Source of the DNA: Hyaloperonospora brassicae
Taxonomy: Eukaryota > Oomycota > Peronosporomycetes > Peronosporales > Peronosporaceae
Direction: 5' to 3'
Length of the DNA stretch: 64,000 bases
Assembly (NCBI GenBank): GCA_947650285.1
Contig: CANTFL010000409.1
Coordinates: 62,001-126,000 of the forward strand
Part shown: piece by piece, positions 1 to 24,357 of the stretch
Numbering within the stretch: position 1 is the first letter of the stretch
Layout: each line of letters opens with the position of its first letter
Notes under the pieces: generated by a model
Databases searched by the model: none
Told to the model about the DNA's origin: nothing
What the model saw: the letters and a program-made list of their open reading frames with translations, nothing else
Position numbers and translations under genes: made by a program

Positions 1-34
1 GCGGGAGATTGCGGGTTCGAGTCCCGTCGGAGAC
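1..34 (+). tRNA. tRNA-Arg(ACG), 5' part missing at window edge
   Basis: Only positions 39-72 of the tRNA are present: the 3' half of the anticodon stem, the variable loop, the T arm with an intact GGTTCGAGTCC B box, and the acceptor 3' strand. These bases match the array consensus. Confidence 0.9.
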
Positions 35-719
35 TGTCTTTGACTGGTCGCTCCTTTGCGATTGTTCTTGGACGCCCAAAGACGATGGACAGCGTTTTGA
101 ACACTGGCCGTCTAAGAGGCGCATGGTGTATCTTCGACCACTTCATTGGATTGTACACAGAGATCAACTCGATACAGTAGGAAAGACGAAACAGTCGAAC
201 TGTATCTACGCATCTCTCTGAGCTCCACTGCCGTGCTGAAGTGAAATCTGCGCCGCCGAGACACGTTAATCTTCTTGGCAGTGTCTGTTTACGTGTTTGT
301 GTGTTTCTTCTATTCTTTGTGGCAGCGTCTTGCATGATGTACAATCGACAGAATATGGTTCTAGCTGTAAGCGAGCACACTCCATTGCGACAACAACAAC
401 GAGCTCAGATGCGGCGAAAACGAAAGTCGTTCTTCTCCGATGGAAGGTCTATTCGATTCAGTATCGCAAGCGACGTTTCGAATGTGAAACCTATCGATTG
501 CTACCTCACAAACATGTCGAAATGATGTATTTTAGCTTGAGGTACGTGTTCAGCAGTCCTGGCACGTGCTGCTTCGAAGGTAATCCCACTTTACTGAATA
601 CGTGTCGCAGGACAGCTGTAAATGTGCGAGTGTGGCCAGGAATGGTAGCAGTCAGTCGTTGAAGTTGGAAAGGATGCAGTTGCGGATGTGAAGCGAGTGT
701 GGAGCATGCAATGAGGAGC

Positions 720-791
720 GTCCCCGTGGCCCAATGGATAAGGCATCCGCCTACGAAGCGGGAGATTGCGGGTTCGAGTCCCGTCGGAGAC
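720..791 (+). tRNA. tRNA-Arg(ACG), consensus copy (reference for the array)
   Basis: A 72-base cloverleaf can be drawn: acceptor GTCCCCG/CGGAGAC, D arm GCCC..GGC, anticodon stem TCCGC/GCGGG with loop CTACGAA (anticodon ACG, reading CGU, CGC and CGA after A34-to-inosine), variable loop AGATT, T arm GCGGG/CCCGT. The internal Pol III promoter boxes are TGGCCCAATGG (A) and GGTTCGAGTCC (B). CCA is not encoded and there is no intron. The acceptor stem has one mismatch, C4-A69, where T4 would pair. The next base is T, an unusual discriminator for arginine. The first run of four T lies at 852-855, so a trailer of about 60 bases is expected. Confidence 0.9.
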
Positions 792-1476
792 TGTCTTTGA
801 CTGGTCGCTCCTTTGCGATTGTTCTTGGACGCCCAAAGACGATGAACAGCGTTTTGAACACTGGCCGTCTAAGAGGCGCATGGTGTGTCTTCGGCCACTT
901 CATTGGATTGCACACAGAGATCAACTCGATACAGTAGGAAAGACGAAACAGTCGAACTGTATCTACGCATCTCTCTGAGCTCCATTGCCGTGCTGAAGTG
1001 AAATCTGCGCCACCGAGACACGTTAATCTTCTTGGCAGTGTCTGTTTACGTGTTTGTGTGTTTCTTCTATTCTTTGTGGCAGCGTCTTGCATGATGTACA
1101 ATCGACAGAATATGGTTCTAGCTGTAAGCGAGCACACTCCATTGCGACAACAACAACGAGCTCAGATGCGGCGAAAACGAAAGTCGTTCTTCTCCGATGG
1201 AAGGTCTATTCGATTCAGTATCGCAAGCGACGTTTCAAATGTAAACCTATCGATTGCTACCTCACAAACATGTCGAAATGATGAATTTTAGCTTGAGGTA
1301 CGTGTTCAGCTGTCCTGACACGTGCTGCCTCGAAGGTTATCCCACTTCCACTGAATACGTGTTGCAGGACAGCTGTAAATGTGCGGGTGTGGCTAGGAAT
1401 GATAGCAGTCAGTCGTTGGAGCTGGAAAGGATGCAGTTGCGGATGTGAAGCGAGTGTGAAGCATGCAATGAGGAGC

Positions 1477-1548
1477 GTCCCCGTGGCCCAATGGATAAGG
1501 CATCCGCCTACGAAGCGGGAGATTGCGGGTTCGAGTCCCGTCGGAGAC
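1477..1548 (+). tRNA. tRNA-Arg(ACG), consensus copy
   Basis: Identical to the array consensus, including the C4-A69 mismatch. Confidence 0.9.
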
Positions 1549-2233
1549 TGTCTTTGACTGGTCGCTCCTTTGCGATTGTTCTTGGACGCCCAAAGACGAT
1601 GAACAGCGTTTTGAACACTGGCCGTCTAAGAGGCGCATGGTGTGTCTTCGGCCACTTCATTGGATTGCACACAGAGATCAACTCGATACAGTAGGAAAGA
1701 CGAAACAGTCGAACTGTATCTACGCATCTCTCTGAGCTCCATTGCCGTGCTGAAGTGAAATCTGCGCCACCGAGACACGTTAATCTTCTTGGCAGTGTCT
1801 GTTTACGTGTTTGTGTGTTTCTTCTATTCTTTGTGGCAGCGTCTTGCATGATGTACAATCGACAGAATATGGTTCTAGCTGTAAGCGAGCACACTCCATT
1901 GCGACAACAACAACGAGCTCAGATGCGGCGAAAACGAAAGTCGTTCTTCTCCGATGGAAGGTCTATTCGATTCAGTATCGCAAGCGACGTTTCAAATGTA
2001 AACCTATCGATTGCTACCTCACAAACATGTCGAAATGATGAATTTTAGCTTGAGGTACGTGTTCAGCTGTCCTGACACGTGCTGCCTCGAAGGTTATCCC
2101 ACTTCCACTGAATACGTGTTGCAGGACAGCTGTAAATGTGCGGGTGTGGCCAGGAATGATAGCAGTCAGTCGTTGGAGCTGGAAAGGATGCAGTTGCGGA
2201 TGTGAAGCGAGTGTGAAGCATGCAATGAGGAGC

Positions 2234-2305
2234 GTCCCCGTGGCCCAATGGATAAGGCATCCGCCTACGAAGCGGGAGATTGCTGGTTCGAGTCCCGTCG
2301 GAGAC
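2234..2305 (+). tRNA. tRNA-Arg(ACG), variant G51T
   Basis: T-stem base 51 is T instead of G, which leaves T51 opposite C63. The B box is intact. The copy at 4505 shares the change. Confidence 0.8.
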
Positions 2306-2990
2306 TATCTTTGACTGGTCGCTCCTTTGCGATCGTTCTTGGACGCCCAAAGACGATGGAAAGCGTTTTGAACACTGGCCGTCCAAGAGGCGCATGGTGT
2401 ATCTTCGACCACTTTATTGGATTGTACACAGAGATCAACTCGATACAGTAGGAAAGACGAAACAGTCGAACTGTATCTACGCATCTCTCTGAGCTCCACT
2501 GCCGTGCTGAAGTGAAATCTGCGCCGCCGAGACACGTTAATCTTCTTAGCAGTGTCTGTTTACGTGTTTGTGTGTTTCTTCTATTCTTTGTGGCAGCGTC
2601 TTGCATGATGTACAATCGACAGAAGCTGGTTCTAGCTGTAAGCAAGCACATTCCATTGCGGCAACAACAATGAGCTCAGATCAGGCGAAAACGAAAGTCG
2701 TTCTTCTCCGATGGAAGATCTATTCGATTCAGTATCGCAAGCGACGTTTCGAATGTAAACCTATCGATTGCTACCTCACAAACATGTCGAAATGATGCAT
2801 TTTAGCTTGAGGTACGTGTTCAGCAGTCCTGGCACGTGCTGCTTCGAAGGTAATCCCACTTTCACTGAATACGTGTCGCAGGACAGCTGTAAATGTGCGA
2901 GTGTGGCCAGGAATGGTAGCAGTCAGTCGTTGAAGTTGGAAATGATGCAGTTGCGGATGTGAAGCGAGTGTGGAGCATGCAATGAGGAGC

Positions 2991-3062
2991 GTCCCCGTGG
3001 CCCAATGGATAAGGCATCCGCCTACGAAGCGGGAGATTGCGGGTTCGAGTCCCGTCGGAGAC
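2991..3062 (+). tRNA. tRNA-Arg(ACG), consensus copy
   Basis: Identical to the array consensus. Confidence 0.9.
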
Positions 3063-3747
3063 TGTCTTTGACTGGTCGCTCCTTTGCGATTGTTCTTGGA
3101 CGCCCAAAGACGATGAACAGCGTTTTGAACACTGGCCGTCTAAGAGGCGCATGGTGTGTCTTCGGCCACTTCATTGGATTGCACACAGAGATCAACTCGA
3201 TACAGTAGGAAAGACGAAACAGTCGAACTGTATCTACGCATCTCTCTGAGCTCCATTGCTATGCTGAAGTGAAATCTGCGCTGCCGAGACACGTTAATCT
3301 TCTTGGCAGTGTCTGTTTACGTGTTTGTGTGTTTCTTCTATTCTTTGTGGCAGCGTCTTGCATGATGTACAATCGACAGATGCTAGTTCTAGCTATAAGC
3401 GACCACATTCCATTGCGGCAACAACGATGGTCTCAGATCAGGTGAAAACGAAAGTCGTTCTCCTCCGATGGAAGGTCTATTCGATTCAGTATCGCAAGCG
3501 ACGTTTCAAATGTAAACCTATCGATTGCTACCTCACAAACATGTCGAAATGATGAATTTTAGCTTGAGGTACGTGTTCAGCTGTCCTGACACGTGCTGCC
3601 TCGAAGGTTATCCCACTTCCACTGAATACGTGTTGCAGGACAGCTGTAAATGTGCGGGTGTGGCCAGGAATGGTAGCAGTCAGTCGTTGGAGCTGGAAAG
3701 GATGCAGTTGCGGATGTGAAGCGAGTGTCGAGCATGCAATGAGGAGC

Positions 3748-3819
3748 GTCCCCGTGGCCCAATGGATAAGGCATCCGCCTACGAAGCGGGAGATTGCGGG
3801 TTCGAGTCCCGTCGGAGAC
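3748..3819 (+). tRNA. tRNA-Arg(ACG), consensus copy
   Basis: Identical to the array consensus. Confidence 0.9.
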
Positions 3820-4504
3820 TGTCTTTGACTGGTCGCTCCTTTGCGATTGTTCTTGGACGCCCAAAGACGATGAACAGCGTTTTGAACACTGGCCGTCTAA
3901 GAGGCGCATGGTGTGTCTTCGGCCACTTCATTGGATTGCACACAGAGATCAACTCGATACAGTAGGAAAGACGAAACAGTCGAACTGTATCTACGCATCT
4001 CTCTGAGCTCCATTGCCGTGCTGAAGTGAAATCTGCGCCACCGAGACACGTTAATCTTCTTGGCAGTGTCTGTTTACGTGTTTGTGTGTTTCTTCTATTC
4101 TTTGTGGCAGCGTCTTGCATGATGTACAATCGACAGAATATGGTTCTAGCTGTAAGCGAGCACACTCCATTGCGACAACAACAACGAGCTCAGATGCGGC
4201 GAAAACGAAAGTCGTTCTTCTCCGATGGAAGGTCTATTCGATTCAGTATCGCAAGCGACGTTTCAAATGTAAACCTATCGATTGCTACCTCACAAACATG
4301 TCGAAATGATGCATTTTAGCTTGAGGTACGTGTTCAGCTGTCCTGACACGTGCTGCCTCGAAGGTTATCCCACTTCCACTGAATACGTGTTGCAGGACAG
4401 CTGTAAATGTGCGGGTGTGGCCAGGAATGATAGCAGTCAGTCGTTGGAGCTGGAAAGGATGCAGTTGCGGATCTGAAGCGAGTGTGGAGCATGCAATGAG
4501 GAGC

Positions 4505-4576
4505 GTCCCCGTGGCCCAATGGATAAGGCATCCGCCTACGAAGCGGGAGATTGCTGGTTCGAGTCCCGTCGGAGAC
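4505..4576 (+). tRNA. tRNA-Arg(ACG), variant G51T
   Basis: Same T-stem change as at 2234. The two copies lie in duplicated two-unit blocks. Confidence 0.8.
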
Positions 4577-5260
4577 TATCTTTGACTGGTCGCTCCTTTG
4601 CGATCGTTCTTGGACGCCCAAAGACGATGGAAAGCGTTTTGAACACTGGCCGTCCAAGAGGCGCATGGTGTATCTTCGACCACTTTATTGCATTGTACAC
4701 AGAGATCAACTCGATACAGTAGGAAAGACGAAACAGTCGAACTGTATCTACGCATCTCTCTGAGCTCCACTGCCGTGCTGAAGTGAAATCTGCGCCGCCG
4801 AGACACGTTAATCTTCTTAGCAGTGTCTGTTTACGTGTTTGTGTGTTTCTTCTATTCTTTGTGGCAGCGTCTTGCATGATGTACAATCGACAGAAGCTGG
4901 TTCTAGCTGTAAGCAAGCACATTCCATTGCGGCAACAACAATGAGCTCAGATCAGGCGAAAACGAAAGTCGTTCTTCTCCGATGGAAGATCTATTCGATT
5001 CAGTATCGCAAGCGACGTTTCGAATGTAAACCTATCGATTGCTACCTCACAAACATGTCGAAATGATGCATTTTAGCTTGAGGTACGTGTTCAGCAGTCC
5101 TGGCACGTGCTGCTTCGAAGGTAATCCCACTTTACTGAATACGTGTCGCAGGACAGCTGTAAATGTGCGAGTGTGGCCAGGAATGGTAGCAGTCAGTCGT
5201 TGAAGTTGGAAAAGATGCAGTTGCGGATGTGAAGCGAGTGTGGAGCATGCAATGAGGAGC

Positions 5261-5332
5261 GTCCCCGTGGCCCAATGGATAAGGCATCCGCCTACGAAGC
5301 GGGAGATTGCGGGTTCGAGTCCCGTCGGAGAC
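5261..5332 (+). tRNA. tRNA-Arg(ACG), consensus copy
   Basis: Identical to the array consensus. Confidence 0.9.
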
Positions 5333-6017
5333 TGTCTTTGACTGGTCGCTCCTTTGCGATTGTTCTTGGACGCCCAAAGACGATGAACAGCGTTTTGAAC
5401 ACTGGCCGTCTAAGAGGCGCATGGTGTGTCTTCGGCCACTTCATTGGATTGCACACAGAGATCAACTCGATACAGTAGGAAAGACGAAACAGTCGAACTG
5501 TATCTACGCATCTCTCTGAGCTCCATTGCTATGCTGAAGTGAAATCTGCGCTGCCGAGACACGTTAATCTTCTTGGCAGTGTCTGTTTACGTGTTTGTGT
5601 GTTTCTTCTATTCTTTGTGGCAGCGTCTTGCATGATGTACAATCGACAGATGCTAGTTCTAGCTATAAGCGACCACATTCCATTGCGGCAACAACGATGG
5701 TCTCAGATCAGGTGAAAACGAAAGTCGTTCTCCTCCGATGGAAGGTCTATTCGATTCAGTATCGCAAGCGACGTTTCAAATGTAAACCTATCGATTGCTA
5801 CCTCACAAACATGTCGAAATGATGAATTTTAGCTTGAGGTACGTGTTCAGCTGTCCTGACACGTGCTGCCTCGAAGGTTATCCCACTTCCACTGAATACG
5901 TGTTGCAGGACAGCTGTAAATGTGCGGGTGTGGCCAGGAATGGTAGCAGTCAGTCGTTGGAGCTGGAAAGGATGCAGTTGCGGATGTGAAGCGAGTGTCG
6001 AGCATGCAATGAGGAGC

Positions 6018-6089
6018 ATCCCCGTGGCCCAATGGATAAGGCATCCGCCTACGAAGCGGGAGATTGCGGGTTCGAGTCCCGTCGGAGAC
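6018..6089 (+). tRNA. tRNA-Arg(ACG), variant G1A
   Basis: The first acceptor base is A, so the terminal pair becomes A1-C72 in addition to the C4-A69 mismatch. The rest is consensus. Confidence 0.75.
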
Positions 6090-6774
6090 TGTCTTTGACT
6101 GGTCGCTCCTTTGCGATCGTTCTTGGACGCCCAAAGACGATGGAAAGCGTTTTGAACACTGGCCGTCCAAGAGGCGCATGGTGTATCTTCGGCCACTTCA
6201 TTGCATTGTACACAGAGATCAACTCGATACAGTGGGAAAGACGAAACAGTCGAACTGTATCTACGCATCTCTCTGAGCTCCATTGCTATGCTGAAGTGAA
6301 ATCTGCGCCGCCGAGACACGTTAATCTTCTTGGCAGTGTCTGTTTACGTGTTTGTGTGTTTCTTCTATTCTTTGTGGCAGCGTCTTGCATGATGTACAAT
6401 CGGCAGAAGCTAGTTCTAGCTATAAGCGACCACATTCCATTGCGGCAACAACGATGGTCTCAGACCAGGTGAAAACGAAAGTCGTTCTCCTCCGATGGAA
6501 GGTCTATTCGATTCAGTATCGCAAGCGACGTTTCGAATGTAAACCTATCGATTGCTACCTCACAAACATGTCGAAATGATGCATTTGAGCTTGAGGTACG
6601 TGTTCAGCTGTCCTGACACGTGCTGCCTCGAAGGTTATCCCACTTCCACTGAATACGTGTTGCAGGACAGCTGTAAATGTGCGGGTGTGGCCAGGAATGG
6701 TAGCAGTCAGTCGTTGGAGCTGGAAAGGATGCAGTTGCGGATCTGAAGCGAGTGTGAAGCATGCAATGAGGAGC

Positions 6775-6846
6775 GTCCCCGTGGCCCAATAGATAAGGCA
6801 TCCGCCTACGAAGCGAGAGATTGCGGGTTCGAGTCCCGTCGGAGAC
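6775..6846 (+). tRNA. tRNA-Arg(ACG), probably defective (G18A, G42A)
   Basis: The first G of the invariant D-loop GG pair (G18), which normally contacts the T loop, is A. G42A also breaks the C28-G42 pair of the anticodon stem. It is probably a decaying copy, although both promoter boxes remain close to consensus. Confidence 0.65.
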
Positions 6847-7531
6847 TGTCTTTGACTGGTCGCTCCTTTGCGATCGTTCTTGGACGCCCAAAGACGATGG
6901 AAAGCGTTTTGAACACTGGCCGTCCAAGAGGCGCATAGTGTATCTTTGGCCACTTCATTGCATTGTACACAGAGATCAACTCGATACAGTAGGAAAGACG
7001 AAACAGTCGAACTGTATCTACGCATCTCTCTGAGCTCCATTGCTATGCTGAAGTGAAATCTGCGCCGCCGAGACACGTTAATCTTCTTGGCAGTGTCTGT
7101 TTACGTGTTTGTGTGTTTCTTCTATTCTTTGTGGCAGCGTCTTGCATGATGTACAATCGACAGAATATGGTTCTAGCTGTAAGCGACCACATTCCATTGC
7201 GGCAACAACGATGGTCTCAGACCAGGTGAAAACGAAAGTCGTTCTCCTCCGATGGAAGGTCTATTCGATTCAGTATCGCAAGCGACGTTTCAAATGTGAA
7301 ACTATCGATTGATAAAGAACAAACATGTCGAAATGATGCATTTTAGCTTGAGGTACGTGTTCAGCTGTCCTGACACGTGCTGCTTCGAAGGTTATCCCAC
7401 TTTCACTGAATACGTGTTGCAGGACAGCTGTAAATGTGCGGGTGTGGCCAGGAATGGTAGCAGTCAGTCGTTGAAGCTGGAAAGGATGCAGTTGCGGATG
7501 TGAAGCGAGTGTGGAGCATGCAATGAGGAGC

Positions 7532-7603
7532 GTCCCCGTGGCCCAATGGATAAGGCATCCGCCTACGAAGCGGGAGATTGCGGGTTCGAGTCCCGTCGGA
7601 GAC
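7532..7603 (+). tRNA. tRNA-Arg(ACG), consensus copy
   Basis: Identical to the array consensus. Confidence 0.9.
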
Positions 7604-8289
7604 TGTCTTTGACTGGTCGCTCCTTTGCGATCGTTCTTGGACGCCCAAAGACGATGGAAAGCGTTTTGAACACTGGCCGTCCAAGAGGCGCATGGTGTAT
7701 CTTCGGCCACTTCATTGGATTGTACACAGAGATCAACTCGATACAGTAGGAAAGACGAAACAGTCGAACTGTATCTACGCATCTCTCTGAGCTCCATTGC
7801 TATGCTGAAGTGAAATCTGCGCCGCCGAGACACGTTAATCTTCTTGGCAGTGTCTGTTTACGTGTTTGTGTGTTTCTTCTATTCTTTGTGGCAGCGTCTT
7901 GCATGATGTACAATCGACAGAATATGGTTCTAGCTGTAAGCGACCACATTCCATTGCGGCAACAACGATGGTCTCAGACCAGGTGAAAACGAAAGTCGTT
8001 CTCCTCCGATGGAAGGTCTATTCGATTCAGTATCGCAAGCGACGTTTCAAATGTGAAACTATCGATTGATAAAGAACAAACATGTCGAAATGATGCATTT
8101 TTAGCTTGAGGTACGTGTTCAGCTGTCCTGACACGTGCTGCCTCGAAGGTTATCCCACTTTCACTGAATACGTGTTGCAGGACAGCTGTAAATGTGCGGG
8201 TGTGGCCAGGAATGGTAGCAGTCAGTCGTTGAAGCTGGAAAGGATGCAGTTGCGGATGTGAAGCGAGTGTCGAGCATGCAATGAGGAGC

Positions 8290-8361
8290 GTCCCCGTGGC
8301 CCAATGGATAAGGCATCCGCCTACGAAGCGGGAGATTGCGGGTTCGAGTCCCGTCGGAGAC
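8290..8361 (+). tRNA. tRNA-Arg(ACG), consensus copy
   Basis: Identical to the array consensus. Confidence 0.9.
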
Positions 8362-9047
8362 TGTCTTTGACTGGTCGCTCCTTCGCGATCGTTCTTGGAC
8401 GCCCAAAGACGATGGAAAGCGTTTTGAACACTGGCCGTCCAAGAGGCGCATGGTGTATCTTCGGCCACTTCATTGGATTGTACACAGAGATCAACTCGAT
8501 ACAGTAGGAAAGACGAAACAGTCGAACTGTATCTACGCATCTCTCTGAGCTCCATTGCTATGCTGAAGTGAAATCTGCGCCGCCGAGACACGTTAATCTT
8601 CTTGGCAGTGTCTGTTTACGTGTTTGTGTGTTTCTTCTATTCTTTGTGGCAGCGTCTTGCATGATGTACAATCGACAGAATATGGTTCTAGCTGTAAGCG
8701 AGCACATTCCATTGCGGCAACAACGATGGTCTCAGACCAGGTGAAAACGAAAGTCGTTCTCCTCCGATGGAAGGTCTATTCGATTCAGTATCGCAAGCGA
8801 CGTTTCAAATGTGAAACTATCGATTGATAAAGAACAAACATGTCGAAATGATGCATTTTTAGCTTGAGGTACGTGTTTAGCTGTCCTGACACGTGCTGCT
8901 TCGAAGGTTATCCCACTTTCACTGAATACGTGTTGCAGGACAGCTGTAAATGTGCGGGTGTGGCCAGGAATGGTAGCAGTCAGTCGTTGAAGCTGGAAAG
9001 GATGCAGTTGCGGATGTGAAGCGAGTGTCGAGCTTGCAATGAGGAGC

Positions 9048-9119
9048 GTCCCCGTGGCCCAATGGATAAGGCATCCGCCTACGAAGCGGGAGATTGCGGG
9101 TTCGAGTCCCGTCGGAGAC
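9048..9119 (+). tRNA. tRNA-Arg(ACG), consensus copy
   Basis: Identical to the array consensus. Confidence 0.9.
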
Positions 9120-9804
9120 TGTCTTTGACTGGTCGCTCCTTTGCGATCGTTCTTGGACGCCCAAAGACGATGGAAAGCGTTTTGAACACTGGCCGTCCAA
9201 GAGGCGCATGGTGTATCTTCGGCCACTTCATTGGATTGTACACAGAGATCAACTCGATACAGTAGGAAAGACGAAACAGTCGAACTGTATCTACGCATCT
9301 CTCTGAGCTCCATTGCTATGCTGAAGTGAAATCTGCGCCGCCGAGACACGTTAATCTTCTTGGCAGTGTCTGTTTACGTGTTTGTGTGTTTCTTCTATTC
9401 TTTGTGGCAGCGTCTTGCATGATGTACAATCGACAGAATATGGTTCTAGCTGTAAGCGAGCACATTCCATTGCGGCAACAACGATGGTCTCAGACCAGGT
9501 GAAAACGAAAGTCGTTCTCCTCCGATGGAAGGTCTATTCGATTCAGTATCGCAAGCGACGTTTCAAATGTGAAACTATCGATTGATAAAGAACAAACATG
9601 TCGAAATGATGCATTTTAGCTTAGGGTACGTGTTTAGCTGTCCTGACACGTGCTGCTTCGAAGGTTATCCCACTTTCACTGAATACGTGTTGCAGGACAG
9701 CTGTAAATGTGCGGGTGTGGCCAGGAATGGTAGCAGTCAGTCGTTGAAGCTGGAAAGGATGCAGTTGCGGATGTGAAGCGAGTGTGGAGCATGCAATGAG
9801 GAGC

Positions 9805-9876
9805 GTCCCCGTGGCCCAATGGATAAGGCATCCGCCTACGAAGCGAGAGATTGCGGGTTCGAGTCCCGTCGGAGAC
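9805..9876 (+). tRNA. tRNA-Arg(ACG), variant G42A
   Basis: The anticodon stem 3' strand reads GCGAG, giving a C28-A42 mismatch. Shared with the copies at 6775, 10562, 11321 and 23440. Confidence 0.75.
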
Positions 9877-10561
9877 TGTCTTTGACTGGTCGCTCCTTTG
9901 CGATCGTTCTTGGACGCCCAAAGACGATGGAAAGCGTTTTGAACACTGGCCGTCCAAGAGGCGCATGGTGTATCTTCGGCCACTTCATTGGATTGTACAC
10001 AGAGATCAACTCGATACAGTAGGAAAGACGAAACAGTCGAACTGTATCTACGCATCTCTCTGAGCTCCACTGCCATGCTGAAGTGAAATCTGCGCCGCCG
10101 AGACACGTTAATCTTCTTGGCAGTGTCTGTTTACGTGTTTGTGTGTTTCTTCTATTCTTTGTGGCAGCGTCTTGCATGATGTACAATCGACAGAATCTGG
10201 TTCTAGCTATAAGCGAGCACATTCCATTGCGGCAACAACGATGGTCTCAGATCAGGTGAAAACGAAAGTCGTTCTCCTCCGATGGAAGGTCTATTCGATT
10301 CAGTATCGCAAGCGACGTTTCAAATGTGAAACTATCGATTGCTAACGAACAAACATGTCGAAATGATGCATTTTAGCTTGAGGTACGTGTTTAGCTGTCC
10401 TGACACGTGCTGCTTCGAAGGTTATCCCACTTTCACTGAATACGTGTTGCAGGACAGCTGTAAATGTGCGGGTGTGGCCAGGAATGGTAGCAGTCAGTCG
10501 TTGAAGCTGGAAAGGATGCAGTTGCGGATGTGAAGCGAGTGTGGAGCATGCAATGAGGAGC

Positions 10562-10633
10562 GTCCCCGTGGCCCAATGGATAAGGCATCCGCCTACGAAG
10601 CGAGAGATTGCGGGTTCGAGTCCCGTCGGAGAC
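10562..10633 (+). tRNA. tRNA-Arg(ACG), variant G42A
   Basis: Same C28-A42 mismatch as its left neighbour. Confidence 0.75.
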
Positions 10634-11320
10634 TGTCTTTGACTGGTCGCTCCTTTGCGATCGTTCTTGGACGCCCAAAGACGATGGAAAGCGTTTTGAA
10701 CACTGGCCGTCCAAGAGGCGCATGGTGTATCTTCGGCCACTTCATTGGATTGTACACAGAGATCAACTCGATACAGTAGGAAAGACGAAACAGTCGAACT
10801 GTATCTACGCATCTCTCTGAGCTCCATTGCTATGCTGAAGTGAAATCTGCGCCGCCGAGACACGTTAATCTTCTTGGCAGTGTCTGTTTACGTGTTTGTG
10901 TGTTTCTTCTATTCTTTGTGGCAGCGTCTTGCATGATGTACAATCGACAGAATGCTGGTTCTAGCTGTAAGCGACCACATTCCATTGCGGCAACAACGAT
11001 GGTCTCAGATCAGGTGAAAACGAAAGTCGTTCTCCTCCGATGGAAGGTCTATTCGATTCAGTACCGCAAGCGACCTTTCGAATGTGAAACTATCGATTGC
11101 TACCTCACAAACATGTCGAAATGATGAATTTTAGCTTGAGGTACGTGTTCTAGCAGTCCTGACACGTGCTGCTTCAAAGGTTATCCCACTTTCACTGAAT
11201 ACGTGTTGCAGGACAGCTGTAAATGTGCGGGTGTGGCCAGGAATGGTAGCAGTCAGTCGTTGAAGCTGGAAAGGATGCAGTTGCGGATGTGAAGCGAGTG
11301 TCGAGCATGCAATGAGGAGC

Positions 11321-11392
11321 ATCCCCGTGGCCCAATGGATAAGGCATCCGCCTACGAAGCGAGAGATTGCGGTTTCGAGTCCCGTCGGAGAC
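11321..11392 (+). tRNA. tRNA-Arg(ACG), degenerate (G1A, G42A, G53T)
   Basis: Three changes relative to consensus. G53T breaks the conserved G53-C61 pair and alters the first bases of the B box, so both transcription and folding are doubtful. Probably a pseudo-tRNA. Confidence 0.6.
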
Positions 11393-12076: not shown

Positions 12077-12148
12077 GTCCCCGTGGCCCAATGGATAAGG
12101 CATCCGCCTACGAAGCGGGAGATTGCGGGTTCGAGTCCCGTCGGAGAC
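12077..12148 (+). tRNA. tRNA-Arg(ACG), consensus copy
   Basis: Identical to the array consensus. Confidence 0.9.
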
Positions 12149-13590: not shown

Positions 13591-13662
13591 GTCCCCGTGG
13601 CCCAATGGATAAGGCATCCGCCTACGAAGCGGGAGATTGCGGGTTCGAGTCCCGTCGGAGAC
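13591..13662 (+). tRNA. tRNA-Arg(ACG), consensus copy
   Basis: Identical to the array consensus. Confidence 0.9.
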
Positions 13663-14347
13663 TGTCTTTGACTGGTCGCTCCTTTGCGATTGTTCTTGGA
13701 CGCCCAAAGACGATGGAAAGCGTTTTGAACACTGGCCGTCCAAGAGGCGCATGGTGTATCTTCGGCCACTTCATTGGATTGCACACAGAGATCAACTCGA
13801 TACAGTAGGAAAGACGAAACAGTCGAACTGTATCTACGCATCTCTCTGAGCTCCATTGATATGCTGAAGTGAAATCTGTGCCGCCGAGACACGTTCACCT
13901 TCTTGGCAGTGTCTGTTTACGTGTTTGTGTGTTTCTTCTATTCTTTGTGGCAGCGTCTTGCATGATGTACAATCGGCAGAAGCTGGTTTTAGCTGTAAGC
14001 AAGCACATTCCATTGCGGCAACAACAATGAGCTCAGATGCGGCAAAAACGAAAGTCGTTCTCCTCCGATGGAAGGTCTATTCGATTCAGTATCGCAAGCG
14101 ACATTTCGAATGTAAACCTATCGATTGCTACCTCACAAACATGTCGAAATGATGCATTTTAGCTTGAGGTACGTGTTCAGCTGTCCTGACACGTGCTGCC
14201 TCGAAGGGTTTCCCACTTCCACTGAATACGTGTTGCAGGACAGCTGTAGATGTGTGGGTGTGGCCAGGAATGGTAGCAGTCAGTCGTTGAAGTTGGAAAG
14301 GATGCAGTTGCGGATGTGAAGCGAGTGTGAAGCATGCAATGAGGAGC

Positions 14348-14419
14348 GTCCCCGTGGCCCAATGGATAAGGCATCCGCCTACGAAGCGGGAGATTGCGGG
14401 TTCGAGTCCCGTCGGAGAC
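14348..14419 (+). tRNA. tRNA-Arg(ACG), consensus copy
   Basis: Identical to the array consensus. Confidence 0.9.
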
Positions 14420-15104
14420 TGTCTTTGACTGGTCGCTCCTTTGCGATCGTTCTTGGACGCCCAAAGACGATGGAAAGCGTTTTGAACACTGGCCGTCCAA
14501 GAGGCGCATGGTGTATCTTCGGCCACTTCATTGGATTGCACACAGAGATCAACTCGATACAGTAGGAAAGATGAAACAGTCGAACTGTATCTACGCATCT
14601 CGCTGAGCTCCATCGCTATGCTGAAGTGAAATCTGCGCCGCCGAGACACGTTAATCTTCTTGGCAGTGTCTGTTTACGTGTTTGTGTGTTTCTTCTATTC
14701 TTTGTGGCAGCGTCTTGCATGATGTACAATCGACAGATGCTAGTTCTAGCTATAAGCGATCACATTCCATTGCGGCAACAACGATGGTCTCAGATCAGGT
14801 GAAAACGAAAGTCTTTATCCTCCATTGGAAGGTCTATTCGATTCAGTACCGCAAGCGACCTTTCAAATGTGAAACTATCGATTGCTACCTCACAAACATG
14901 TCGAAATGATGAATTTTAGCTTGAGGTACGTGTTCAGCAGTCCTGACACGTGCTGCTTCGAAGGTTATCCCACTTTCACTAAATACGTGCTGCAGGACAG
15001 CTGTAAATGTGCGAGTGTGGCCAGGAATGGTAGCAGTCAGTCGTTGAAGCTGGAAAGGATGCAGTTGCGGATGTGAAGCGAGTGTGAAGCATGCAATGAG
15101 GAGC

Positions 15105-15176
15105 GTCCCCGTGGCCCAATGGATAAGGCATCCGCCTACGAAGCGGGAGATTGCGGGTTCGAGTCCCGTCGGAGAC
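15105..15176 (+). tRNA. tRNA-Arg(ACG), consensus copy
   Basis: Identical to the array consensus. Confidence 0.9.
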
Positions 15177-15864
15177 TATCTTTGACTGGTCGCTCCTTTG
15201 CGATCGTTCTTGGACGCCCAAAGACGATGGAAAGCGTTTTGAACACTGGCCGTCCAAGAGGCGTATAATATGTATTCGGCCACTTTATTGCATTGTACAC
15301 AAAGATCAACTCGATAAAGTAGGAAAGACGAAACAGTCGAACTGTATCTACGCATCTCGCTGAGCTCCATTGCTATGCTGAAGTGAAATCTGCGCCGCCG
15401 AGACACGTTCACCTTCTTGGCAGTGTCTGTTTACGTGTTTGTGTGTTTCTTCTATTCTTTGTGGCAGCGTCTTGCATGATGTACAATCGACAGAACATGG
15501 TTCTAGCTGTAAGCGAGCACACTCCATTGCGACAACAACAACGATGGTCTCAGATCAGGCGAAAACGAAAGTCGTTCTTCTCCAATGGAAGATCTATTCG
15601 ATTCAGTATCGCAAGCGACGTTTCGAATGTAAACCTATTGATTGATAACGAACAAACATGTCGAAATAATGCATTTGAGCTTGAGGTACGTGTTCAGCTG
15701 TCCTGACACGTGCTGCTTCGAAGGTTATCCCACTTTCACTAAATACGTGCTGCAGGACAGCTGTAAATGTGCGGGTGTGGCCAGGAATGGTAGCAGTCAG
15801 TCGTTGAAGCTAGAAAGGATGCAGTTGCGGATGTGAAGCGAGTGTGAAGCATGCAATGAGGAGC

Positions 15865-15936
15865 GTCCCCGTGGCCCAATGGATAAGGCATCCGCCTACG
15901 AAGCGGGAGATTGCGGGTTCGAGTCCCGTCGGAGAC
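15865..15936 (+). tRNA. tRNA-Arg(ACG), consensus copy
   Basis: Identical to the array consensus. This unit and its neighbours are the longest in the array (760-761 bp). Confidence 0.9.
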
Positions 15937-16624
15937 TATCTTTGACTGGTCGCTCCTTTGCGATCGTTCTTGGACGCCCAAAGACGATGGAAAGCGTTTT
16001 GAACACTGGCCGTCCAAGAGGCGTATAATATGTATTCGGCCACTTTATTGCATTGTACACAAAGATCAACTCGATAAAGTAGGAAAGACGAAACAGTCGA
16101 ACTGTATCTACGCATCTCGCTGAGCTCCATCGCTATGCTGAAGTGAAATCTGCGCCGCCGAGACACGTTCACCTTCTTGGCAGTGTCTGTTTACGTGTTT
16201 GTGTGTTTCTTCTATTCTTTGTGGCAGCGTCTTGCATGATGTACAATCGACAGATGTTAGTTCTAGCTGTAAGCGAGCACATTCCATTGCGACAACAACA
16301 ACGATGGTCTCAGATCAGGCGAAAACGAAAGTCGTTCTTCTCCAATGGAAGATCTATTCGATTCAGTATCGCAAGCGACGTTTCGAATGTAAACCTATTG
16401 ATTGATAACGAACAAACATGTCGAAATAATGCATTTGAGCTTGAGGTACGTGTTCAGCTGTCCTGGCACGTGCTGCTTAGAAGGTTATCCCACTTTCACT
16501 GAATACGTGCCGCAGGACAGCTGTAGATGTGCGGGTGTGGCCAGGAATGGTAGCAGTCAGTCGTTGAAGCTGGAAAGGATGCAGTTGCGGATGTGAAGCG
16601 AGTGTGGAGCATGCAATGAGGAGC

Positions 16625-16696
16625 GTCCCCGTGGCCCAATGGATAAGGCATCCGCCTACGAAGCGGGAGATTGCGGGTTCGAGTCCCGTCGGAGAC
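16625..16696 (+). tRNA. tRNA-Arg(ACG), consensus copy
   Basis: Identical to the array consensus. Confidence 0.9.
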
Positions 16697-17385
16697 TGTC
16701 TTTGACTGGTCGCTCCTTTGCGATCGTTCTTGGACGCCCAAAGACGATGGAACAGCGTTTTGAACACTGGCCGTCCAAGAGGCGTATAGTGTGTCTTCGG
16801 CCACTTTATTGCATTGTACACAAAGATCAACTCGATACAGTAGGAAAGACGAAACAGTCGAACTGTATCTACGCATCTCGCTGAGCTCCATTGCTATGCT
16901 GAAGTGAAATCTGCGCCGCCGAGACACGTTCACCTTCTTGGCAGTGTCTGTTTACGTGTTTGTGTGTTTCTTCTATTCTTTGTGGCAGCGTCTTGCATGA
17001 TGTACAATCGACAGATGTTAGTTCTAGCTGTAAGCGAGCACATTCCATTGTGACAACAACAACGATGGTCTCAGATCAGGCGAAAACGAAAGTCGTTCTT
17101 CTCCAATGGAAGATCTATTCGATTCAGTATCGCAAGCGACGTTTCGAATGTAAACCTATTGATTGATAACGAACAAACATGTCGAAATAATGCATTTGAG
17201 CTTGAGGTACGTGTTCAGCTGTCCTGGCACGTGCTGCTTAGAAGGTTATCCCACTTTCACTGAATACGTGTCGCAGGACAGCTGTAGATGTGCGGGTGTG
17301 GCCAGGAATGGTAGCAGTCAGTCGTTGAAGCTGGAAAGGATGCCGTTGCGGATGTGAAGCGAGTGTGGAGCATGCAATGAGGAGC

Positions 17386-17457
17386 GTCCCCGTGGCCCAA
17401 TGGATAAGGCATCCGCCTACGAAGCGGGAGATTGCGGGTTCGAGTCCCGTCGGAGAC
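17386..17457 (+). tRNA. tRNA-Arg(ACG), consensus copy
   Basis: Identical to the array consensus. Confidence 0.9.
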
Positions 17458-18143
17458 TGTCTTTGACTGGTCGCTCCTTTGCGATCGTTCTTGGACGCCC
17501 AAAGACGATGGAACAGCGTTTTGAACACTGGCCGTCTAAGAGGCGCATGGTGTGTCTTCGGCCACTTCATTGGATTGCACACAGAGATCAACTCGATACA
17601 GTAGGAAAGATGAAACAGTCGAACTGTATCTACGCATCTCTCTGAGCTCCATTGCTATGCTGAAGTGAAATCTGCGCCGCCGAGACACGTTAATCTTCTT
17701 GGCAGTGTCTGTTTACGTGTTTGTGTGTTTCTTCTATTCTTTGTGGCAGCGTCTTGCATGATGTACAATCGACAGATGTTAGTTCTAGCTGTAAGCGAGC
17801 ACATTCCATTGCGACAACAACAACGAGCTCAGATCAGGCGAAAACGAAAGTCGTTCTTCTCCAATGGAAGATCTATTCGATTCAGTATCGCAAGCGACGT
17901 TTCGAATGTAAACCTATTGATTGATAACGAACAAACATGTCGAAATAATGCATTTGAGCTTGAGGTACGTGTTCAGCTGTCCTGGCACGTGCTGCCTCGA
18001 AGGTTATCCCACTTCCACTGAATACGTGTCGCAGGACAGCTGTAGATGTGCGGGTGTGGCCAGGAATGGTAGCAGTCAGTCGTTGGAGCTGGAAAGGATG
18101 CAGTTGCGGATGTGAAGCGAGTGTCGAGCATGCCATGAGGAGC

Positions 18144-18215
18144 GTCCCTGTTGTCCAATGGATAAGGCATCCACCTACGAAGCGGGAGATTGCGGGTTCG
18201 AGTCCCGTCGGAGAC
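18144..18215 (+). tRNA. tRNA-Arg(ACG), degenerate (C6T, G9T, C11T, G30A)
   Basis: Four changes: the A box becomes TTGTCCAATGG (G9T is outside the usual consensus), C6T and C11T leave G-T pairs, and G30A gives an A30-C40 mismatch. The copy at 21171 carries the same set. Anticodon and B box are intact. Reduced transcription or function is likely. Confidence 0.6.
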
Positions 18216-18899
18216 TGTCTTTGACTGGTCGCTCCTTTGCGATCGTTCTTGGACGTCCAAAGACGATGGAAAGCGTTTTGAACACTGGCCGTCCAAGAGG
18301 CGCATGGTGCATCTTCGGCCACTTTATTGCATTGTACACAGAGATCAACTCGATACAGTAGGAAAGATGAAACAGTCGAACTGTATCTACGCATCTCTCT
18401 GAGCTCCATTGCTATGCTGAAGTGAAATCTGCGCCGCCGAGACACGTCCACCTTCTTGGCAGCGTCTGTTTACGTGTTTGTGTGTTTCTTCTATTCTTTG
18501 TGGCAGCGTCTTGCATGATGTACAATCGACAGATGTTAGTTCTAGCTGTAAGCGAGCACATTCCATTGCGACAACAACAACGAGCTCAGATGCGGCGAAA
18601 ACGAAAGTCGATCTTCTCCGATGGAAGGTCTATTCGATTCAGTATCGCAAGCGACGTTTCGAATGTAAACCTATCGATTGATAAAGAACAAACATGTCGA
18701 AATGATGCATTTTAGCTTGAGGTACGTGTTCAGCAGTCCTGGCACGTGCTGCTTCGAAGGTAATCCCACTTTACTGAATACGTGTCGCAGGACAGCTGTA
18801 AATGTGCGAGTGTGGCCAGGAATGGTAGCAGTCAGTCGTTGAAGTTGGAAAAGATGCAGTTGCGGATGTGAAGCGAGTGTGGAGCATGCAATGAGGAGC

Positions 18900-18971
18900 G
18901 TCCCCGTGGCCCAATGGATAAGGCATCCGCCTACGAAGCGGGAGATTGCGGGTTCGAGTCCCGTCGGAGAC
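18900..18971 (+). tRNA. tRNA-Arg(ACG), consensus copy
   Basis: Identical to the array consensus. Confidence 0.9.
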
Positions 18972-19656
18972 TGTCTTTGACTGGTCGCTCCTTTGCGATC
19001 GTTCTTGGACGCCCAAAGACGATGGAAAGCGTTTTGAACACTGGCCGTCCAAGAGGCGCATGGTGTATCTTCGGCCACTTCATTGGATTGTACACAGAGA
19101 TCAACTCGATACAGTAGGAAAGACGAAACAGTCGAACTGTATCTACGCATCTCTCTGAGCTCCATTGCTATGCTGAAGTGAAATCTGCGCCGCCGAGACA
19201 CGTTAATCTTCTTGGCAGTGTCTGTTTACGTGCTTGTGTGTTTCTTCTATTCTTTGTGGCAGCGTCTTGCATGATGTACAATCGACAGAAGCTTGTTTTA
19301 GCTGTAAGCAAGCACATTCCATTGCGACAACAACAATGAGCTCAGATGCGTCAAAAATGAAAGTCGTTCTTCTCCGATGGAAGGTCTATTCGATTCAGTA
19401 TCGCAAGCGACGTCTCAAATGTGAAACTATCGATTGATAAAGAACAAACATGTCGAAATGATGCATTTTAGCTTAGAGTACGTGTTCAGCTGTCCTGACA
19501 CGTGCTGCTTCGAAGGTTATCCCACTTTCACTGAATACGTGTTGTAGGACAGCTGTAAATGTGCGGGTGTGGCCAGGAATGGTAGCAGTCAGTCGTTGAA
19601 GCTGGAAAGGATGCAGTTGCGGATGTGAAGCGAGTGTGGAGCATGCAATGAGGAGC

Positions 19657-19728
19657 GTCCCCGTGGCCCAATGGATAAGGCATCCGCCTACGAAGCGGGA
19701 GATTGCGGGTTCGAGTCCCGTCGGAGAC
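19657..19728 (+). tRNA. tRNA-Arg(ACG), consensus copy
   Basis: Identical to the array consensus. Confidence 0.9.
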
Positions 19729-20413
19729 TGTCTTTGACTGGTCGCTCCTTTGCGATCGTTCTTGGACGCCCAAAGACGATGGAAAGCGTTTTGAACACTG
19801 GCCGTCCAAGAGGCGCATGGTGTATCTTCGGCCACTTCATTGGATTGTACACAGAGATCAACTCGATACAGTAGGAAAGACGAAACAGTCGAACTGTATC
19901 TACGCATCTCTCTGAGCTCCATTGCTATGCTGAAGTGAAATCTGCGCCGCCGAGACACGTTAATCTTCTTGGCAGTGTCTGTTTACGTGTTTGTGTGTTT
20001 CTTCTATTCTTTGTGGCAGCGTCTTGCATGATGTACAATCGACAGAAGCTGGTTCTAGCTGTAAGCGAGCACATTCCATTGCGACAACAACAACGAGCTC
20101 AGACCAGGCGAAAACGAAAGTCGTTCTTCTCCGATGGAAGGTCTATTCGATTCAGTATCGCAAGCGACGTCTCAAATGTGAAACTATCGATTGATAGCGA
20201 ACAAATATGTCGAAATAATGCATTTGAGCTTGAGGTACGTGTTCAGCTGTCCTGACAAGTGCTGCTTAGAAGGTTATCCCACTTCCACTGAATACGTGTT
20301 GCAGGACAGCTGTAAATGTGCGGGTGTGGCCAGGAATGGTAGCAGTCAGTCGTTGAAGCTGGAAAGGATGCCGTTGCGGATGTGAAGCGAGTGTGGAGCA
20401 TGCAATGAGGAGC

Positions 20414-20485
20414 GTCCCCGTGGCCCAATGGATAAGGCATCCGCCTACGAAGCGGGAGATTGCGGGTTCGAGTCCCGTCGGAGAC
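20414..20485 (+). tRNA. tRNA-Arg(ACG), consensus copy
   Basis: Identical to the array consensus. Confidence 0.9.
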
Positions 20486-21170
20486 TGTCTTTGACTGGTC
20501 GCTCCTTTGCGATCGTTCTTGGACGCCCAAAGACGATGGAAAGCGTTTTGAACACTGGCCGTCCAAGAGGCGCATGGTGTATCTTCGGCCACTTCATTGC
20601 ATTGTACACAGAGATCAACTCGATACAGTAGGAAAGATGAAACAGTCGAACTGTATCTACGCATCTCTCTGAGCTCCATTGCTATGCTGAAGTGAAATCT
20701 GCGCCGCCGAGACACGTTCACCTTCTTGGCAGTGTCTGTTTACGTGTTTGTGTGTTTCTTCTATTCTTTGTGGCAGCGTCTTGCATGATGTACAATCGAC
20801 AGATGCTAGTTCTAGCTGTAAGCGAGCACATTCCATTGCGACAACAACAACGAGCTCAGATCAGGCGAAAACGAAAGTCGTTCTTCTCCAATGGAAGATC
20901 TATTCGATTCAGTATCGCAAGCGACGTTTCGAATGTAAACCTATTGATTGATAACGAACAAACATGTCGAAATAATGCATTTGAGCTTGAGGTACGTGTT
21001 CAGCTGTCCTGGCACGTGCTGCCTCGAAGGTTATCCCACTTCCACTGAATACGTGTCGCAGGACAGCTGTAGATGTGCGGGTGTGGCCAGGAATGGTAGC
21101 AGTCAGTCGTTGGAGCTGGAAAGGATGCAGTTGCGGATGTGAAGCGAGTGTCGAGCATGCCATGAGGAGC

Positions 21171-21242
21171 GTCCCTGTTGTCCAATGGATAAGGCATCCA
21201 CCTACGAAGCGGGAGATTGCGGGTTCGAGTCCCGTCGGAGAC
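21171..21242 (+). tRNA. tRNA-Arg(ACG), degenerate (C6T, G9T, C11T, G30A)
   Basis: Same four changes as the copy at 18144, exactly 3027 bp (four units) away, so it arose by duplication of that variant. Confidence 0.6.
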
Positions 21243-21926
21243 TGTCTTTGACTGGTCGCTCCTTTGCGATCGTTCTTGGACGTCCAAAGACGATGGAAAG
21301 CGTTTTGAACACTGGCCGTCCAAGAGGCGCATGGTGCATCTTCGGCCACTTTATTGCATTGTACACAAAGATCAACTCGATACAGTAGGAAAGATGAAAC
21401 AGTCGAACTGTATCTACGCATCTCTCTGAGCTCCATTGCTATGCTGAAGTGAAATCTGCGCCGCCGAGACACGTTCACCTTCTTGGCAGCGTCTGTTTAC
21501 GTGTTTGTGTGTTTCTTCTATTCTTTGTGGCAGCGTCTTGCATGATGTACAATCGACAGATGCTAGTTCTAGCTATAAGCGATCACATTCCATTGCGACA
21601 ACAACAACGAGCTCAGATGCGGCGAAAACGAAAGTCGTTCTTCTCCGATGGAAGGTCTATTCGATTCAGTATCGCAAGCGACGTTTCGAATGTAAACCTA
21701 TCGATTGATAAAGAACAAACATGTCGAAATGATGCATTTTAGCTTGAGGTACGTGTTCAGCAGTCCTGGCACGTGCTGCTTCGAAGGTAATCCCACTTTA
21801 CTGAATACGTGTCGCAGGACAGCTGTAAATGTGCGAGTGTGGCCAGGAATGGTAGCAGTCAGTCGTTGAAGTTGGAAAAGATGCAGTTGCGGATGTGAAG
21901 CGAGTGTCGAGCATGCAATGAGGAGC

Positions 21927-21998
21927 GTCCCCGTGGCCCAATGGATAAGGCATCCGCCTACGAAGCGGGAGATTGCGGGTTCGAGTCCCGTCGGAGAC
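21927..21998 (+). tRNA. tRNA-Arg(ACG), consensus copy
   Basis: Identical to the array consensus. Confidence 0.9.
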
Positions 21999-22682
21999 TG
22001 TCTTTGACTGGTCGCTCCTTTGCGATCGTTCTTGGACGCCCAAAGACGATGGAAAGCGTTTTGAACACTGGCCGTCCAAGAGGCGCATGGTGTATCTTCG
22101 GCCACTTCATTGCATTGTACACAGAGATCAACTCGATACAGTAGGAAAGACGAAACAGTCGAACTGTATCTACGCATCTCTCTGAGCTCCATTGCTATGC
22201 TGAAGTGAAATCTGCGCCGCCGAGACACGTTAATCTTCTTGGCAGCGTCTGTTTACGTGTTTGTGTGTTTCTTCTATTCTTTGTGGCAGCGTCTTGCATG
22301 ATGTACAATCGACAGATGTTAGTTCTAGCTGTAAGCGAGCACATTCCATTGCGACAACAACAACGAGCTCAGATGCGGCGAAAACGAAAGTCGTTCTTCT
22401 CCGATGGAAGGTCTATTCGATTCAGTATCGCAAGCGACGTTTCGAATGTAAACCTATCGATTGATAAAGAACAAACATGTCGAAATGATGCATTTTAGCT
22501 TGAGGTACGTGTTCAGCAGTCCTGGCACGTGCTGCTTCGAAGGTAATCCCACTTTACTGAATACGTGTCGCAGGACAGCTGTAAATGTGCGAGTGTGGCC
22601 AGGAATGGTAGCAGTCAGTCGTTGAAGTTGGAAAAGATGCAGTTGCGGATGTGAAGCGAGTGTCGAGCATGCAATGAGGAGC

Positions 22683-22754
22683 GTCCCCGTGGCCCAATGG
22701 ATAAGGCATCCGCCTACGAAGCGGGAGATTGCGGGTTCGAGTCCCGTCGGAGAC
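22683..22754 (+). tRNA. tRNA-Arg(ACG), consensus copy
   Basis: Identical to the array consensus. Its unit is nearly the same as its left neighbour in the first half and as the unit at 18900 in the second half. Confidence 0.9.
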
Positions 22755-23439
22755 TGTCTTTGACTGGTCGCTCCTTTGCGATCGTTCTTGGACGCCCAAA
22801 GACGATGGAAAGCGTTTTGAACACTGGCCGTCCAAGAGGCGCATGGTGTATCTTCGGCCACTTCATTGCATTGTACACAGAGATCAACTCGATACAGTAG
22901 GAAAGACGAAACAGTCGAACTGTATCTACGCATCTCTCTGAGCTCCATTGCTATGCTGAAGTGAAATCTGCGCCGCCGAGACACGTTAATCTTCTTGGCA
23001 GTGTCTGTTTACGTGCTTGTGTGTTTCTTCTATTCTTTGTGGCAGCGTCTTGCATGATGTACAATCGACAGAAGCTTGTTTTAGCTGTAAGCAAGCACAT
23101 TCCATTGCGACAACAACAATGAGCTCAGATGCGTCAAAAATGAAAGTCGTTCTTCTCCGATGGAAGGTCTATTCGATTCAGTATCGCAAGCGACGTCTCA
23201 AATGTGAAACTATCGATTGATAAAGAACAAACATGTCGAAATGATGCATTTTAGCTTAGGGTACGTGTTTAGCTGTCCTGACACGTGCTGCTTCGAAGGT
23301 TATCCCACTTTCACTGAATTCGTGTTGTAGGACAGCTGTAAATGTGCGGGTGTGGACAGGAATGGTAGCAGTCAGTCGTTGAAGCTGGAAAGGATGCAGT
23401 TGCGGATGTGAAGCGAGTGTGGAGCATGCAATGAGGAGC

Positions 23440-23511
23440 GTCCCCGTGGCCCAATGGATAAGGCATCCGCCTACGAAGCGAGAGATTGCGGGTTCGAGTC
23501 CCGTCGGAGAC
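23440..23511 (+). tRNA. tRNA-Arg(ACG), variant G42A
   Basis: C28-A42 mismatch in the anticodon stem. Otherwise consensus. Confidence 0.75.
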
Positions 23512-24195
23512 TGTCTTTGACTGGTCGCTCCTTTGCGATCGTTCTTGGACGCCCAAAGACGATGGAAAGCGTTTTGAACACTGGCCGTCCAAGAGGCGCA
23601 TGGTGTATCTTCGGCCACTTCATTGGATTGTACACAGAGATCAACTCGATACAGTAGGAAAGACGAAACAGTCGAACTGTATCTACGCATCTCTCTGAGC
23701 TCCATTGCTATGCTGAAGTGAAATCTGCGCCGCCGAGACACGTTAATCTTCGTGGCAGTGTCTGTTTACGTGTTTGTGTGTTTCTTCTATTCTTTGTGGC
23801 AGCGTCTTGCATGATGTACAATCGACAGAAGCTGGTTTTAGCTGTAAGCAAGCACATTCCATTGCGACAACAACAATGAGCTCAGATCAGGCGAAAACGA
23901 AAGTCGTTCTTCTCCAATGGAAGATCTATTCGATTCAGTATCGCAAGCGACGTTTCGAATGTAAACCTATCGATTGATAACGAACAAACATATCGAAATA
24001 ATGCATTTGAGCTTGAGGTACGTGTTCAGCTGTCCTGGCACGTGCTGCTTAGAAGGTAATCCCACTTTACTGAATACGTGTCGCAGGACAGCTGTAGATG
24101 TGTGGGTGTGGCCAGGAATGGTAGCAGTCAGTCGTTGGAGCTGGAAAGGATGCAGTTGCGGATGTGAAGCGAGTGTGGAGCATGCAATGAGAAGC

Positions 24196-24267
24196 GTCCC
24201 CGTGGCCCAATGGATAAGGCATCCGCCTACGAAGCGGGAGATTGCGGGTTCGAGTCCCGTCGGAGAC
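24196..24267 (+). tRNA. tRNA-Arg(ACG), last copy of the array
   Basis: The tRNA itself is consensus. Its flanks differ: upstream reads GAGAAGC instead of GAGGAGC, and the downstream TTTT run present in other units is TTTA here (AGCGTTTAGAAC). The usual terminator candidate is therefore lost. The unit is interrupted 90 bp further on. Confidence 0.85.
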
Positions 24268-24357
24268 TGTCTTTGACTGGTCGCTCCTTCGCGATCGTTC
24301 TTGGACGCCCAAAGACGATGGACAGCGTTTAGAACACTGGCCGTCCAAGAGGCGCAT

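Follow-up and report, generated by a model that had tools for sequence, protein, structure and literature searches.

Large tandem arrays built on a single transfer RNA (tRNA) gene have already been published for relatives in the Peronosporaceae, and such arrays hold most tRNA genes of Phytophthora infestans and Peronospora effusa (PMC9584435, PMC11540230). In P. effusa, ~99.6% of >6,000 tRNA genes fall into 33-39 clusters, and a tRNA-Arg array on chromosome 6 has a 717-bp unit (72-bp gene, 645-bp interval) in 570 copies over 412 kb in isolate Pe1, its length being 129-412 kb depending on the isolate; the authors called these arrays SINE-like (SINE, short interspersed nuclear element), thought each family immobile and added the array consensus sequences to the transposon library for soft-masking (PMC11540230). 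All 271 tRNA-Cys genes of P. infestans lie on one chromosome with a 513-nt unit, read depth agreeing with the assembly; growth by unequal crossing-over was proposed, and in monomeric arrays the rare variants are grouped, often near one edge (PMC9584435). Because long-read oomycete assemblies contain anywhere from 380 to 8,606 tRNA genes, and the same source warns of assembly artefacts (PMC9584435), we make no claim that such arrays are present in all oomycetes. The locus analysed here joins the published ones. It reaches into a 64,000-nt stretch of DNA (C209:62001-126000, where C209 is the contig; hereafter the window), was compared with the whole assembly (100.56 Mb, 898 contigs), and is very probably a functional nuclear tRNA-Arg(ACG) gene family that a Peronosporaceae oomycete maintains head to tail in a single array.

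ARAGORN found 32 whole tRNA-Arg(acg) genes in the window (720-24268), all on the forward strand and all 32 with cloverleaf and anticodon, and Rfam scored the identical 32 genes above the gathering score of its tRNA family RF00005 (34.7-55.7 bits; cut-off 29). Their start-to-start distance is 756-761 bp, mostly 757, which bears out the initial annotation of a single-isoacceptor tandem array with long spacers and ~757-bp units. A 33rd gene starts 38 bases before the window and contributes only its 3' end. The count of at least 33 genes first given was an understatement: a blastn search of one unit against the contig placed the whole array at C209:30647-86360 (55.7 kb), with 74 tRNA-Arg(ACG) genes, one per unit, head to tail on one strand and at a single chromosomal place. 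It is composed of a partial unit at C209:30647, 73 complete units and a truncated last unit that includes its tRNA, and it has non-array sequence on both flanks, all within one 231,684-bp contig. Of the extent first proposed, 1..24357, the right end stands (measured at 24360, that is, C209:86360); the left end does not, as the array continues upstream beyond the window, which shows its right 44%.

Besides the array, whose extent and sequence structure are read directly from the contig, pattern searches of the 100.6-Mb assembly, with inspection of the places they listed, revealed no second Arg-ACG gene. A tight Arg-ACG pattern had 73 matches assembly-wide, all inside the array, and missed one array copy with a variant B-box. 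Two looser patterns gave 96 and 103 matches, of which array copies made up 73 in each case; the off-array remainders (23 and 30) are about as large as the counts from backward controls (13+11 and 14+14). ARAGORN recognised no tRNA in any of the 40 distinct off-array places listed from the two looser patterns (100 of 103 places listed), and Rfam at E-values up to 0.1 returned nothing in 20 of these 40. Similarly, a pattern with the GCG anticodon was not enriched, having 22 matches against 38 in its backward control (match counts only). An RF00005 family search of the assembly, in which the best 63 of 4161 first-look candidates were scored, gives no genome tRNA total. tRNA-Arg(CCG) is represented by four dispersed genes, on contigs C868, C497, C792 and C861; 60 bases of 3' flank are nearly the same in the C868 and C497 copies, which were therefore probably copied together with their flank. 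A dispersed repeat, seen at a dozen or more scattered places, holds a GCGCGATCGGTTCGATCCCGG-like lookalike of the T arm and has no tRNA or Rfam match.

A tRNA with inosine at position 34 reads the codons CGU, CGC and CGA, and the array tRNA would read them after editing of A34 to inosine. In four window genes, CGT, CGC and CGA together account for 107 of 146 Arg codons. Given this share, and given that the searches revealed no further Arg-ACG gene, the cell probably decodes Arg mainly through the array; the lack of a second gene also implies that the array probably supplies an essential tRNA, which disfavours the proposal, made in the initial annotation, of a selfish satellite that captured a tRNA. 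Each unit would have its own internal RNA polymerase III (Pol III) promoter, formed by the A and B boxes of the tRNA, so that the array would multiply the tRNA dose, and high tRNA-Arg dosage is retained as one of the possible roles first suggested. The accompanying statement that every unit has a promoter-bearing tRNA holds for nearly all of them: 22 of the 32 whole genes in the window, and 64 of 74 over the array, are identical, and the variants include changes at gene positions 9, 11, 17 and 53, which we take to fall in the A-box or B-box. All ten variant copies lie within units 45-73, in the window part of the array.

Pairwise identity between complete units ranges from 93.1 to 100% (mean 96.7%), a difference of up to 7%, and averages 98.3% in units 1-42 and 95.4% in units 43-73. 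The most similar unit is found at a median distance of 2, to be compared with a mean of 16.8 and a lowest value of 9.0 over 500 permuted orders. Blocks of units are repeated as well, for example units 44-46 resembling 47-49 and units 65-66 resembling 69-70, and five units (24, 25, 27, 28 and 29) are letter-for-letter identical. This similarity between near neighbours fits the pattern expected from local unequal exchange or conversion. Unequal exchange or gene conversion within the array would add and remove copies and keep them alike, the left 42 units probably forming a recently homogenised core and the right, window part an older edge of drifted copies, some with mutated tRNAs. Identical units could also arise if the assembler had inflated the copy number. 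However, most units can be told apart and their similarity is ordered along the array, both flanks sit on the same contig, and P. infestans tRNA copy numbers agree with Illumina depth (PMC9584435); an artefact of this sort is scarcely credible, and collapse, if anything, would make 74 an undercount.

The tRNA is near-identical across the array and the spacer less conserved. Over the 73 complete units, diversity is 0.007 in the tRNA and 0.036 in the spacer, and in units 1-42 none of the 73 tRNA sites is variable versus 66 of 684 spacer sites (Fisher p = 0.0016). The following points weigh against a working gene family. When all 73 units are counted, variable sites (9/73 in the tRNA versus 133/684 in the spacer) do not differ significantly (p = 0.16). 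Moreover, 44 of 684 73-bp windows, the tRNA included, are as low in diversity as the tRNA. All tRNA copies share a C-A mismatch at the fourth acceptor-stem pair, neither position of which varies. The search patterns would miss an Arg-ACG gene that has an intron or is divergent, and the assembly, in 898 contigs, may be incomplete. Finally, the first run of four T (T4) is located at +60 after the tRNA in 71 units and at +61 in two, with none within 59 bases. Constraint on the tRNA is thus proposed modestly, because the site counts differ significantly in units 1-42 and not over all units.

A canonical Pol III terminator, with at least four T, was not found close downstream of the array tRNA genes; termination would therefore need the first run of three T (T3), which occurs at offset +4 in all 73 complete units, or a long trailer. 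None of eight other tRNA kinds in this assembly (Lys-CTT, Lys-TTT, Cys, Thr, Trp, Met, Ala and Val) has T4 within 30 bases either, a count that excludes the possibly mitochondrial row of tRNA genes on contig C737. Of nine kinds inspected, six (Arg-ACG, Lys-CTT, Lys-TTT, Met, Ala and Val) have CTTT within ~10 bases of their end, and CTTT was not seen there for Cys, Thr and Trp. A B-box followed by CTTTG had 179 matches assembly-wide versus 1 in controls, and 73 of the listed places are the Arg-ACG array. All four dispersed tRNA-Arg(CCG) genes are followed at once by T4-T5, and TTTT occurs near the T arm in the arrays on contigs C558 and C863.

The P. effusa arrays, whose tandem tRNA and ~645-bp companion sequence were classed as SINE-like (PMC11540230), raise the alternative that the unit is a tRNA-derived retroelement expanded in place. 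A unit fragment indeed occurs on another contig (C773:67071-67322; 252 bp, unit positions 28-279, 95% identical), with one end truncated within the tRNA and the other within the spacer. It was returned, together with the four Arg-CCG genes, by a whole-unit DNA search. This search passes over words that are frequent in the assembly, reports none of the array copies and scored 5 of its 7 candidates, which is why we do not use it alone against dispersal. A 29-base spacer block, allowing up to 3 mismatches, had all 74 of its assembly matches within the array or in the remnant at its edge, however, and dispersed copies at many sites, as a SINE would have, were not found: outside the array there is one truncated fragment, the only stray copy among the candidates scored. 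Units abut directly, head to tail, with no A-rich tail before the next gene and no intervening target duplications in a by-eye reading, no dedicated target-site-duplication search having been made. In addition, the array gene is recognised as a tRNA by its score, no further Arg-ACG gene came to light, and the P. effusa authors themselves placed each family at one location and considered it likely unable to mobilise (PMC11540230). With its stray fragment truncated and its spacer block confined to the array, the unit is very unlikely to be such a retroelement. As judged from the sequence, the data are better explained by a functional gene family that spread through unequal recombination than by a mobile element.

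The array has been hit by a dispersed element, as a repeat copy at 24361-24745 sits at its right edge; among 2297 first-look candidates for further copies, the best 40 were scored and were 91-93% identical, apart from the copy itself. This repeat begins TGTAACGG, and its first bases are presumably long terminal repeat (LTR)-like. The array's own unit does not behave in this way. On contig C773, the unit fragment belongs to a ~1.5-kb segment (67071-68590) that also contains a T-arm match identical to the C863 repeat and a tRNA-Val(TAC), and that is a small collection of tRNA-unit pieces.

Within the spacer, the longest invariant run is a block of 48 bp, and a run of equal length arose in 25 of 10000 shuffles of the variable columns; its significance is suggestive, because the shuffle test treats columns as independent. 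A bolder proposal would combine two claims, that the cell has no source other than the array for the tRNA reading about three quarters of Arg codons and that the 48-bp block is a conserved cis-element with array-wide action, such as a role in Pol III chromatin or in the control of replication forks or copy number. As a whole, this combination is a long shot; if true, the oomycete tRNA 'SINE-like' arrays would be rDNA-like loci with their own maintenance element. Rfam, at gathering scores, found no RNA family other than tRNA in the window, spacers included. The longest open reading frames (ORFs) with a Met start in units 10, 30, 43 and 60 are antisense and 113-161 aa long; a protein gene in the unit was rejected as apparently spurious, since it is not the same ORF in all four units inspected. 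The ORFs annotated in P. effusa spacers may be antisense frames of this kind.

The genes around the array are ordinary ones: an Alg9-like mannosyltransferase and an alpha/beta hydrolase on the left, and on the right COX11, an NF-Y-type histone-fold gene, a kinesin and a GcvH domain gene, with spermidine synthase and dymeclin further off. After the NF-Y-type gene, at 27956-28027, a GTC trinucleotide run (8.7 copies) directly adjoins one of GTA (16 copies). The array could also be viewed as a selfish satellite or a chromosomal landmark (boundary, subtelomere or centromere) whose tRNA genes would for the most part be passengers or chromatin elements. Its size, its local homogenisation and the invariant 48-bp spacer block could serve chromatin, and published speculation links tRNA arrays to nuclear organisation in P. 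infestans. Against this, ordinary genes lie on both sides, the left edge of the array is 30.6 kb into the contig, so that the array is not at a contig end, and it is apparently the only Arg-ACG locus. We rate this explanation extremely improbable, although the array could act as a landmark and supply tRNA at once. A subtelomere, one of the roles suggested at the outset, finds no support and is disfavoured by the gene flanks and the position in the contig; telomere repeats were not searched for.

Spermidine synthase also served to place the host. Among the best 120 of 6542 matches, its top identity was 89%, to Peronospora matthiolae and Hyaloperonospora arabidopsidis; among the matches listed, it was 86-89% identical to proteins of Peronospora, Hyaloperonospora and Phytophthora; a cluster bearing the name of Phytophthora aleatoria stood at 87% and Bremia at 81%. 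These identities place the host among the oomycetes, in the family Peronosporaceae.

Coordinates of the array and associated features, given as window positions
Feature	Position	Strand	Evidence or remark
Right-hand 24.4 kb of the 55.7-kb array, ~757-bp units	1..24360	+	blastn of one unit against the contig; unit list
tRNA-Arg(ACG), 3' part	1..35	+	gene start C209:61963
32 whole 73-bp tRNA-Arg(ACG) genes	720..24268	+	ARAGORN, Rfam RF00005
tRNA starts, first half	720, 1477, 2234, 2991, 3748, 4505, 5261, 6018, 6775, 7532, 8290, 9048, 9805, 10562, 11321, 12077	+	
tRNA starts, second half	12834, 13591, 14348, 15105, 15865, 16625, 17386, 18144, 18900, 19657, 20414, 21171, 21927, 22683, 23440, 24196	+	
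Reference unit (unit 43 of 73 complete units): tRNA 720-792, spacer 793-1476	720..1476	+	
First T3, reference unit	796..798	+	offset +4
First T4, reference unit	852..855	+	offset +60
48-bp spacer block, unit positions 338-385	1057..1104 in reference unit	+	invariant in 73/73 complete units
Dispersed-repeat copy replacing unit positions 166-245 (80 bp) at the right edge of the array	24361..24745	.	
Last array remnant, unit positions 246-376, beyond the insertion	24746..24876	+	blastn; 94% identical
Spermidine synthase gene	53534-54424		

Other tRNAs of this Peronosporaceae host are arrayed likewise. Further arrays carry Lys-CTT (599-bp units), Met (586 bp), Thr/Trp (~890 bp) and Lys-TTT with Cys (~1761 bp), and T-arm patterns repeat every 386, 765 and ~1839 bp in three arrays known from the T-arm pattern alone. 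On the 22-kb contig C737, Met, Ser and Asn tRNA genes are packed in ~260 bases; this contig is perhaps mitochondrial.

Outside the oomycetes, Entamoeba, which the initial annotation had named as the best-known precedent, also keeps almost all its tRNA genes in tandem arrays (PMC2652664). There, units comprise 1 to 5 tRNA types with AT-rich spacers, whereas the present unit has one gene and ~49% GC (0.46-0.51 in 1-kb windows of 1-24000); short tandem repeats, described only for E. histolytica and E. dispar (PMC2652664), are lacking here, Tandem Repeats Finder having reported nothing in 1-24360 at periods of 500 bp or less. An array of the Entamoeba type was rejected on these two grounds, spacer GC and the absence of short tandem repeats of such periods. 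The human 1q23.3 repeat has in common with the present array that it is a large tandem repeat bearing tRNA genes; its copy number is variable, and it differs in its 7.3-kb unit, 9-43 units per allele, CTCF binding and unrelated lineage (PMC4041453).

The closest precedents are instead the arrays of P. infestans and P. effusa (PMC9584435, PMC11540230). The P. effusa tRNA-Arg array shares with ours an arginine tRNA, one gene per unit, a single location, a tRNA more uniform than the spacer, and subgroups of near-identical units. They differ in unit length (717 bp in P. effusa, 757 here), in size (570 copies and 412 kb versus 74 and 55.7 kb) and in orientation, the P. effusa array having two inverted stretches whereas all 74 genes here are on one strand; the likeness rests on description and not on sequence comparison, the word anticodon being absent from the P. 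effusa text (PMC11540230). With the P. infestans arrays, the common features are one tRNA per unit, confinement to one chromosome, near-identical repeats and rare variants often grouped near an edge; the example sizes differ (271 copies of tRNA-Cys in 513-nt units), and section 9 of that paper describes no Arg-ACG array (PMC9584435).

Since the same plan is found in P. infestans, in P. effusa and in the other tRNAs of this genome, we regard the array as a further case of a published organisation. What the present analysis adds is the evidence for a sole locus, the array-confined spacer block and the near-neighbour similarity, all of which bear on the 'SINE-like' label. By assembly-wide pattern counts, this array is the only detectable Arg-ACG locus and, if that situation were general, soft-masking of such arrays would hide essential tRNA genes. 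Compact and complete, with its core homogenised and its edge drifting, the array also lends itself to the study of tandem tRNA gene evolution.

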